Shown here one piece after another: positions 1,180 through 8,811 of a stretch of 36,763 bases of DNA. The position numbers and the translations under genes are program-made. The DNA comes from a virus. How positions within the stretch are numbered: position 1 is the stretch's first letter; each line of letters begins with the position of its first letter. The DNA is taken from positions 1 to 36,763 of the IMG/VR virus record IMGVR_UViG_3300019730_000002, one strand, 5' to 3'. The notes beneath the pieces are model-generated. The model was given only the letters and a program-made list of their open reading frames with translations, had not been told where the DNA came from and searched no databases.

Positions 1180-1230
1180 TATAGGTATATTACTTGGATA
1201 AAATATATTCTACTCAATAGATATTAAGAT

Positions 1231-1313
1231 TGGGAGAGATAGGATTTGAACCTACAAGTCCTTTCGGAGGATGCTTTACAGGCATCTGAGCCAGCCAATT
1301 GCTCAACTCTCCC
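1231..1313 (-). tRNA. tRNA-Tyr (anticodon GUA)
   Basis: Read on the minus strand, a 7-bp acceptor stem GGGAGAG/CTCTCCC closes the molecule, with discriminator A at 1231. The anticodon stem GATGC/GCATC holds loop CTGTAAA, giving anticodon GUA. A long variable arm follows (CTCCGAAAGGA region), then a T arm GTAGG-TTCAAAT-CCTAT. The long variable arm is what bacterial tRNA-Tyr has. CCA is not encoded. It lies inside the early operon and would serve the TAT-rich tyrosine codons. It cannot decode UGA. Confidence 0.95.
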
Positions 1314-6106: not shown

Positions 6107-7321
6107 TTAAAAGGCTTTATCAAACATTCTAAAGGAACTAAGTTTTAATCATAATGGTATATCTGCTTCCATTCAGTTTCTATTCTTCCTTACAAGGATA
6201 TCTAATATTCATTTTCTCTCTGTTTCTTTATCATAATACTCTTCTCTATATAACATCAACACCATATCAGCATCTTGTTCTATACTACCACTATCTCTTA
6301 GATCAGATAGTATTGGTCTTTTATCTGGTCTTTTCTCTACTTCTCTTGATAGTTGGCTTCATAATACAATCTCTACATTATATTTTAATGCTATAAGTTT
6401 AAGTTGTCTTGTTATCTCTGATATTTTATCGATAGTTCTCATATTACTAGATCAATGATTTATTAAACCTAAATAATCTACATAACATACATCTAGTTTG
6501 TTCTTAACCACAAACTGTTCTATTTTGTTTATAGTATATATCTTATCAGATAAAAATAACTTCTTTTCTAATAATTTCTCTAGATACTCCATTATCTTTG
6601 CTATATGATCTGATTTCTTTTCTAATTGATATGAAGTTAATCAAGATAATATACAAACTATTCTATCAATAATATCACCTACTTTCATCTCCATAGAAGC
6701 AAATCAAACATTATATTTTGTGGATTCTCTTAACGCTTTATTTAACATTACAGTAGTTTTTCACATTCAAGGTCTACCAGCAACAACTACTAATTGTCAT
6801 CAAGCAAATTTACAATATTCATCTATACTATCAAATCAACAAACCAACTTCTTTTGTTCTTTATCTATATCCATAAAATAATCTTTTGTTTGTTTCTCTA
6901 GTGTTTCTTCTTCATCAAACTCATCTATCATATCAGTAATCTTTTCTAGCGTTGTCTTAGCTTTATCTATATCTAATCATCTTGTTTCTCATTCTAATCT
7001 TTGTATTCATCTTATGATGGTTCTAGCATTCTTATATTTAATAAGCTCCTTACAAATATATTCAATAGATGATTCTGATACAAATTCTCATAGTATTTCA
7101 AATATATAATCGGCAGCCAATAAACTATCTAAAGCTAATACAGAAACATCTTGTGATTTAGTTTTCTTTATAGATTCAAATAAAATTCTATAACTATCAA
7201 CATAAAAACAATTTTTATCTAGCTTATCTATTGTATAATTAAAATTATAAACCATAGCTATTCATAGTTTCTCTAATTCTATATCGTGAGGTGGTAATAA
7301 AACATCTTCTAATTTTGTCAT
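6107..7321 (-). CDS. dnaB: DnaB-type replicative helicase, 404 aa
   Basis: A hexameric 5'-3' DNA helicase that should unwind the replication fork ahead of host polymerase. The Walker A motif is AGRPGMGKTT (G182-T190 region), with Gly185 and Gly187 both encoded by TGA; translation stops here in the standard code and the loop is destroyed if TGA were tryptophan. Walker B follows as [12 protein letters not shown]. The RecA-fold DnaB signatures [12 protein letters not shown] and [17 protein letters not shown] are intact, then the C-terminal KNRNG. The N-terminal domain (about residues 1-100) is shorter than in bacterial DnaB, as is usual for phage versions. The start overlaps the end of the initiator gene by 13 bases, so the two are translationally coupled. 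Confidence 0.95.
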
Positions 7322-7923
7322 AATTCTTTATCTAATGAAGTAAAGAAATCATCTGTATCTGGAACTTTGATAGGTTCTTTATGTTCTTTCTTTTTGATTC
7401 AATCTTTATTTAACCAACTAAGTATAGTAAAATAATGAGATTTATATTTAGCTCATTTACTTCAAATATAATCATTTAAATTATTCATATATTTATTTAT
7501 AATATTATCTCAATAATTATATATTAGTTTATTATATTCTTCTATAGTTAAATATATATAATCTAAATATAATATCTTATCTATATCTATTCTATTCTTG
7601 TCTATTCTATTCTTGTCTATAGGTTTTTTAGGTTTTGTAGCTTTCGTAGGTTTTTTAGGTTTTTGTGAGTTATTCCAATCTTTCTTTGGTCTTCATCACT
7701 TAATTCAGTTGTTTTTTCTACTCTCACAAAACAAATTATATGCTTCTATATCGTTATCAAAAAATGGTTTAAAGAATCAAAATACAATTTCTAATCTTTT
7801 ATCTAATTTACATTCCAATCATAAATTATATCTATAAATATAATCAAATAAAATACCCTTATCTTCGTTAGATAAATTTTCTATTCAATTATATAATTCT
7901 CACGGAATAAATATCTTTCTCAT
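7309..7923 (-). CDS. Replisome-organizer-like replication initiator / helicase loader, 204 aa
   Basis: The N-terminal domain (about residues 1-75) has the pattern FIPGELYNGIENLSNEDKG ... FFKPFFDN, as in phage proteins that open with a DUF6291-like domain. It is followed by GIKGGRPKK and a Lys-Pro-rich linker. The C-terminal part LTIEEYNKLIYNYGD ... NNLNDYIGSKGAKYKSHYFT ... LSWLNKD is the module shared by many phage replisome organizers and DnaD-like loaders. It probably binds the origin and loads the DnaB-type helicase encoded immediately downstream. The linker includes a perfect 15-bp tandem duplication (7591-7620). An unusual structured leader precedes the ATG by about 20 bases. Confidence 0.78.
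7591..7620. repeat. 15-bp perfect tandem repeat inside the initiator gene
   Basis: TCTATTCTTGTCTAT occurs twice head to tail (7591-7605, 7606-7620) and encodes two copies of R-I-D-K-N. Just beyond it, 7621-7664 holds three imperfect AGGTTTTTTAGGTTTT-like units encoding the Lys-Pro linker. Repeats within an initiator gene are where several phages keep their replication origin, so these could be iterons; protein-level linker expansion is the alternative. Confidence 0.6.
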
Positions 7924-7944
7924 AATAAAATTTTTATAAAACAA

Positions 7945-8024
7945 AAACTGGGCAGCTCCGCCAAGAGTCGAACCCAGTTTAAGTTTGGCGGAACTTTTAA
8001 TCGACTCGGGGTATTTATCTTGGC
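7945..8024 (-). promoter_or_regulatory. Structured leader with three interleaved stems upstream of the initiator gene
   Basis: Three complementary pairs are arranged A-B-C-A'-B'-C': AAACTGGG (7945-7952) with CCCAGTTT (7973-7980); TCCGCCAA (7957-7964) with TTGGCGGA (7985-7992); GAGTCGA (7965-7971) with TCGACTC (8001-8007). A fourth competing pairing joins GCCAAGA (7960-7966) to TCTTGGC (8018-8024). All stems are perfect and GC-rich in an otherwise very A+T-rich genome. The pairs cross each other, so they must form pseudoknots or exclude one another. The region is non-coding and lies about 20 bases before ATG 7923 on the transcribed strand, so a translational or transcriptional control element for replication is the natural reading. 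It contains a TTCGA segment like a T loop but does not fold as a tRNA. Confidence 0.65.
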
Positions 8025-8060
8025 TATAGTAAACAAATAAATCTAAAAATCAAGTCAAAA

Positions 8061-8213
8061 TTAAAACAAACTAACAACAAATAAGATAACAATAAATAAT
8101 AGCCATCATAATCAATACAATATACCTAAAGCTAATGCAGTATATAAAGTATTTTCAAATCAGAAAACAATAACAGCAATAATAATAAGTAGTACAGGTA
8201 TAGAAATATACAT
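8061..8213 (-). CDS. Very small hydrophobic membrane protein, 50 aa
   Basis: The protein is almost entirely hydrophobic: one segment at residues 3-18 (ISIPVLLIIIAVIVFG) and another at about 27-48 (LALGILYGLGWLLFIVILFV), so it probably crosses the membrane twice. Function unknown. Confidence 0.58.
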
Positions 8214-8229: not shown

Positions 8230-8427
8230 TTATAAAACATCTTCAAAATGAGCGGATTCTAACTCATCAATAAATTCTTTCATATTATCGTTAAAATTTC
8301 TTTTAGTAAATCTTTTAACTTCTTGACCAGATAATAGTTTATTTTGGTTATAAGTAGATAATCATAAATATCTCTCTATCCACTCTTTACTAATTCATTT
8401 ATTTAGTAGTAGTTTAAGTTGTTCCAT
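8230..8427 (-). CDS. Small helix-turn-helix-like protein, 65 aa
   Basis: The segment GISKEWIERYLGLSTYNQNK followed by LLSGQEV looks like a helix-turn-helix recognition unit; the C-terminus is acidic. It may regulate the divergent early/late promoters. Family not assigned. Confidence 0.55.
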
Positions 8428-8651: not shown

Positions 8652-8689
8652 AATATTATAAATACAAATTAAAGAGTAGATCTTGGTTT

Positions 8690-8811
8690 CTTTAACAGGT
8701 AGACCTACGAGTATCCTGCTACTTCAAGTTTCGCTATACTATGATAGCTAGACCTCTAACAAACCCTTACGAACTTAGTCGATAGTATATTGTGTTCCTT
8801 AGTGGTAGTGA
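8690..8811 (-). promoter_or_regulatory. Structured non-coding leader of the leftward block
   Basis: No reading frame spans this stretch, which is richer in G+C than its surroundings. Two complementary pairs are interleaved: AAGTTTCG (8726-8733) with CGAACTT (8770-8776, one-base bulge) and TATACTAT (8735-8742) with ATAGTATA (8782-8789, 8 bp), an H-type pseudoknot order. A weaker interleaved pair, CAGG/CCTG and GTAG/CTAC, lies at 8696-8722. It sits between the predicted minus-strand promoter and the first gene, so it would be the 5' leader of the early transcript. No known riboswitch family is recognised. Confidence 0.5.

Follow-up and report, generated by a model that had tools for sequence, protein, structure and literature searches.

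Organization of the leader and its operon

The stretch of DNA analysed here (the window) is a 36.8-kb virus record. Its reading frames stay open only under code 25, in which TGA stands for glycine, and TGA is the commonest glycine codon within it. This is the code of Gracilibacteria and Absconditabacteria (PMC10746230). The sole tRNA found in the phage is a tRNA-Tyr (GTA) at 1230–1314 on the minus strand (ARAGORN, Rfam). The leader element lies within a minus-strand operon, between a small hydrophobic ORF and a replisome-organizer gene, and its parts are arranged as follows.

6107–7321, minus strand: DnaB-like replicative helicase gene, following the organizer gene (code 25)
7309–7923, minus strand: replisome-organizer gene with a DUF6291 N-terminus (phrog_13246; code 25; ATG at 7923–7921)
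7935–7947, minus strand: U-tract UUUUUGUUUU, directly following the 3′ arm of stem a in the manner of an intrinsic terminator
7945–7980, minus strand: stem a, terminator hairpin; 5′ arm 7980–7973 (AAACUGGG), 3′ arm 7952–7945 (CCCAGUUU)
7954–7995, minus strand: stem b, putative anti-terminator capturing the loop; 7995–7985 (AGUUCCGCCAA) with 7964–7954 (UUGGCGGAGCU)
7965–8007, minus strand: stem c, 7 bp; 8007–8001 (GAGUCGA) with 7971–7965 (UCGACUC), in the 5′ half of the terminator loop
7960–8024, minus strand: competitor d, 7 bp; 8024–8018 (GCCAAGA) with 7966–7960 (UCUUGGC)
8061–8213, minus strand: small hydrophobic ORF of 50 aa, upstream of the leader and in the same direction

The original prediction described three perfect, mutually crossing stems of 8, 8 and 7 bp in the order A-B-C-A′-B′-C′, with a competing fourth segment, in a G+C island just before the organizer ATG. 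The segments, their lengths and their order, which holds for the plus strand, were recovered exactly, the region is 42% G+C against 29% for the genome, and the start codon lies at 7923 on the minus strand when code 25 is applied, 21 nt downstream of the element. The stems are all perfect over the lengths given, with the correction that stem b, perfect over 8 bp (7957–7964/7985–7992), really extends to 11 bp with one G·U (7954–7964/7985–7995). The element was rightly taken for the leader of the replication-initiator gene and rightly said to act on the transcribed strand; that strand is the minus strand, where the RNA order is d-c-b-a-c′-b′-a′ and then TTTTTGTTTT.

With code 25, the organizer frame is also open upstream (7924–8058, minus strand) across the entire leader to a TTG at 8058, and the domain alignment favours the ATG at 7923 over this TTG as the start. 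A second G+C-rich island lies upstream of the same operon at 8680–8800, near a divergent promoter region. It holds an imperfect direct repeat (8690–8706, 8739–8755), and it folds no better than shuffles on either strand.

The crossing stems are real and very unlikely to have arisen by chance. A set of three crossing stems, each 7 bp or longer, occurred in 0 of 20,000 mononucleotide shuffles of the 80 bases and in 0 of 20,000 first-order Markov shuffles, and no such set with at least 3 G/C per stem arose when the whole window was simulated 60 times. A single three-crossing-stem case, built from a repeated unit, turned up in 2.17 Mb of other DNA, most of it from phages.

Stem a is perfect over 8 bp (7945–7952/7973–7980), or 9 bp counting a closing U·G, and runs out into TTTTTGTTTT. 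Together with the U-tract, a feature overlooked by the original prediction, it is shaped like an intrinsic terminator, the loop being 18–20 bases long. The 3′ strand of stem b (b′) adjoins the 3′ arm of stem a (a′) and fills the 3′ half of this loop, and c′ fills the 5′ half, so that the upstream RNA is complementary to nearly the entire terminator loop. Here, d and c together form a bulged composite helix onto the loop. Because the loop is long (18–20 nt), the efficiency of termination is uncertain. With a U-tract after stem a, attenuation of transcription becomes a better reading than a novel fold with several knots.

The stability of the simple fold of the RNA is unremarkable (z = −1.07). 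Several mutually exclusive folds are nearly isoenergetic, at −18 to −20 kcal/mol, and these alternatives, within about 2 kcal/mol of one another, bear out the earlier expectation of exclusive structures. Since b′ abuts a′ and the linker from a to b′ is long, full-length stems a and b cannot form a classical coaxial H-type pseudoknot. The junction from the 5′ strand of a to the 3′ strand of b, which is very short in a classical pseudoknot of this type, measures about 7 nt or more. The two stems might coexist, in which case they would need strained side-by-side packing.

Recurrence in leaders of other organizer operons

Three further leaders (L256, L272 and L284) were located through a protein or a helicase motif, independently of the RNA, and only the window was chosen for its RNA. 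L256, from a related phage contig, was found with a search pattern for the helicase P-loop that used TGA codons; its DnaB is 45% identical to that of the window and its organizer 40% identical (N-terminal part), and a small hydrophobic ORF of 44 aa stands in the place equivalent to the 50-aa ORF. Its organizer gene is preceded by the same arrangement b-a-b′-a′-U in other sequences (b being UGUCGCUAA/UUAGCGACA), with a terminator consisting of a 17-bp stem (−25 kcal/mol) and a 38-base loop. L272, on contig 33 of the Gracilibacteria genome G042, was found by a search of the class with the organizer protein and carries b-a-b′-a′-U immediately before the start codon, with a terminator of 13 bp (−18 kcal/mol). 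L284, on contig 14 of the same genome, was found by organizer protein similarity. Its terminator precedes the first ORF of an operon in which a 90-aa ORF accompanies an organizer and a DnaC-like loader. The terminator loop pairs with a nested composite of 8 + 6 bp further upstream, to which the d and c helix of the window is comparable.

U-tracts are present in 4/4 leaders, and in 4/4 Pfam/PHROGs mark the genes that follow as replication initiators or organizer-like. In the window, L256 and L272, stem a and its U-tract lie about 20 nt before the ATG. The design is known from only four leaders, two of them (L272 and L284) from one genome. The original prediction had emphasized one compact multiple pseudoknot of three stems, and this did not survive the comparison: only a and b recur, neither L256 nor L272 has an equivalent of stem c, and L284 carries its nested composite helix onto the terminator loop instead. 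Lacking counterparts in L256 and L272, stem c is either phage-specific or partly fortuitous. The upstream competitor differs in each leader. Pairing to the 5′ arm of the terminator, as by a pre-emptor, is seen in L256 (AUCCAG and GUGUUU against arm a) and weakly in L272; it is absent in the window, where the pairing goes to the loop.

Compensatory changes in homologous leaders, which the original prediction had proposed as a check, were found in both recurring stems. Across the window, L256 and L272, registered at the b′/a′ junction, 9/9 compared pairs are kept in each stem, with two-sided changes at 7/9 in stem b and 4/9 in stem a. The constant part of stem a is the closing U·G and three G-C pairs, and the two strands of b even swap sense, with CGCCAA...UUGGCG in the window and UUUGGCGAC...GUCGCCGAA in L272. 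As the alignment register was picked by the analyst, these counts lean towards structure, and the independent evidence is that of the shuffles and controls.

Long-loop terminators were defined as those with loops of at least 10, an upstream complement was counted at 8 bp or more, and the expectation was taken from shuffled upstream sequence. In 383 kb of code-25 and Gracilibacteria DNA, 4/15 long-loop terminators have an upstream loop complement where 0.2 were expected, and all four sit at organizer operon leaders. The corresponding counts were 2/56 in 2.63 Mb of other (phage) loci (2.6 expected), 0/5 in other prophage loci, and 0/12 in 1.11 Mb of Gracilibacteria control DNA, comprising stretches of two long contigs and of the contigs of G042. 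When the duplex energies of 27 long-loop terminators were compared with shuffles, the window, L284 and L272 took ranks 1–3 and L256 only the 8th (z = −1.07). A strict motif scan (8/8 bp) of 2.84 Mb picked out the window, L256 and a single further place; three shuffled copies gave no hit. A relaxed scan returned three distinct places, which are the three leaders only; as shuffles predict about 1.5, the weight of this result rests on where the places are.

Direct searches extended the set no further. The 20-base core gave no match in IMG/VR, and DNA similarity searches of phages, plasmids and 353 Gracilibacteria-class genomes returned A+T-rich flanks or chance matches only. A pattern common to the window and L256 (CTGGGT..TTRGCG..CCCAG+T) matched 12 contigs, with the structure in L256 only, and was found in 0 of the 353 genomes. 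Terminase and helicase searches yielded close relatives (L003, L004 and L007) too short to reach the replication region, the other matches being distant phages. In eight phages that use the ordinary code and have related organizers, leaders are short or missing and no such terminator occurs, and an organizer-type gene of another Gracilibacteria genome (L271) is without a loop-captured terminator and has a long nested hairpin leader instead (1190–1290, minus strand).

Several side observations were made in these contigs. A further strong terminator-like hairpin (AAGCAACUGC/GCAGUUGUUU followed by Us) lies at 8320–8420 on the minus strand of L284, upstream of the loop-captured one, and a downstream copy is able to pair with its 3′ arm; L284 possibly holds tandem attenuators. 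The organizer leader of L272 (15128–15280) begins about 80 bases from a divergent, host-like radical-SAM-like gene, as if at a prophage edge, and the contig ends at 16581. In the close relative L007, imperfect copies of AATAAAAATTTTTTATATTTTT occur in a C-rich non-coding stretch (1040–1190).

A candidate attenuator and competing readings

Terminator form, an upstream complement of the loop, recurrence with changed sequence and absence from control DNA together make it rather likely, on sequence and comparison, that the element is a cis-acting transcription attenuator between the early genes and the replication operon. Its occurrence in four phages or prophages with the same design suggests that it is probably a built-in switch for replication-gene transcription. 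According to this model, polymerase copying the minus strand would produce d, c, b, a, c′, b′, a′ and the U-tract in turn. The emerging b′ could pair with b over 11 bp and enclose arm a before a′ exists; because b′ is made before a′, stem b could form first and hold the loop. Polymerase would then go on to transcribe the genes for the organizer and DnaB. If something, such as d and c paired to the loop or a factor from outside, kept b from b′, arm a would pair with a′, and the hairpin with its U-tract would stop the transcript about 20 nt short of the start codon. Segments c and d would thus act as competitors of the anti-terminator b. We infer termination by a, its prevention by b, the order of folding, and a purpose in setting the level or timing of replication.

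The same segments could instead answer to an RNA acting in trans, either an antisense RNA or the terminated leader of a resident prophage, which would pair with b or b′, free a and stop the replication operon. A terminator that precedes replication genes and is surrounded by self-complementary segments, as in pT181/pIP501 and P4, the two leaders within a host genome and the upstream copy in L256 that can pair with the terminator 5′ arm in the manner of a pre-emptor would all fit such an attenuator or immunity device. We nevertheless consider it unlikely, since no antisense promoter is established, promoter-like sites being no more frequent than in shuffles, and no separate RNA gene was found. 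A ligand- or protein-sensing leader, in which the knotted a/b/c would be an aptamer or a translational operator (bound by the organizer, for instance) and the U-tract incidental, seems somewhat less likely again. An operator of this protein-bound kind is reportedly exemplified by T4 gene 32. Several crossing stems, a compact G+C island near the start codon and a GGGU/GCCC junction of stem a that is constant in three leaders speak for sensing; conservation of the kind seen in known aptamers is missing from the loop sequences and from the third stem, and U-tracts occur in 4/4 leaders. No Rfam family matched any of the four leaders at gathering score, HMP-PP (thiS) included, and relaxed E-values gave chance-level matches only, in keeping with the earlier statement that no riboswitch, ribozyme or tRNA-like family is known to have this arrangement. 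With Rfam giving no match, a self-cleaving ribozyme or riboswitch was rejected, as was a tRNA- or tmRNA-like reading of GGGUUCGACUC, for which ARAGORN and Rfam gave only the tRNA-Tyr elsewhere.

Intrinsic terminators between operons are common, and the loop complements among 56 other phage terminators are at chance level, both of which would suit a reading in which the upstream transcript ends here at an ordinary terminator and the complementarity is fortuitous. This reading is disfavoured, and we regard it as improbable, given the 4/15 where 0.2 were expected, every one of them at a gene of one kind, the 0/12 in control DNA, and the compensatory changes. Initiators often bind near their own gene, and all of the stems are inverted repeats in the DNA, as a site for the organizer or a repressor (an origin or operator) would have them. 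Such a DNA-level element is very improbable: the b half-sites flip orientation between the window and L272, arm spacing varies among the leaders, the half-sites are not iteron-repeated, and the U-tract is always on the coding side. A DNA-binding dyad was rejected on these changes of orientation and spacing.

A broader version of the attenuator proposal, which we consider unlikely, is that the leaders represent an undescribed class of leader RNA in Gracilibacteria phages and their kin, in which capture of the whole loop gates the replication operon and the terminated leader serves as a prophage immunity RNA in trans. Gene control in phages with recoded TGA that infect candidate-phyla bacteria is very poorly known, and the hosts are hard to grow. 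If the attenuator reading is true, an RNA-only gate would offer a testable control point, recognisable by simple complementarity rules, and a marker for the replication modules of such phages, and the loop-capture design would join the small set of natural replication-initiator attenuators.

Relation to known systems

In phage lambda, tR1 is a Rho-dependent terminator that is relieved by the N protein at nut sites. The element resembles tR1 in placing a terminator between early and replication genes; tR1 depends on Rho, whereas the terminator here is of intrinsic form and has a loop complement. The HMP-PP (thiS motif) riboswitch has an aptamer embedded in a terminator, with a knotted alternative fold that shares the terminator (PMC6478431). 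Here too, a terminator stem has a pseudoknot-capable fold as its competitor within a single short RNA; the conserved aptamer sequence, thiamin genes and ligand of HMP-PP have no equivalent in these leaders.

The nearest known systems are the rep attenuators of pT181 and pIP501 and the immunity system of P4, and none of them matches fully. In pT181 repC and pIP501 repR, the initiator gene is immediately preceded by a terminator, which a pre-emptor keeps from forming unless an antisense RNA reinstates it (PMC5703833, PMC4981023). The leaders share with these a terminator-like stem directly before the initiator start codon, mutually exclusive folds, and an upstream RNA that would prevent the terminator. 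The plasmid pre-emptor targets the 5′ arm of the terminator, whereas here the main upstream segment targets its loop; the plasmid switch is a known antisense RNA, for which the present element, carried by a code-25 phage, has no known counterpart. In P4, CI acts as an antisense RNA that halts replication-gene transcription (PMC4825925). There, a processed antisense RNA pairs with seqA and seqC, whereas the leader described here has a hairpin with a U-tract and no known processed RNA. The c4 RNA of P1/P7 is said to be an immunity RNA comparable to P4 CI. Common to the P4 CI system (and P1/P7 c4) and to the attenuator proposed here are a leader with mutually complementary segments and premature termination that blocks, or in the present case would block, the replication genes of a phage.
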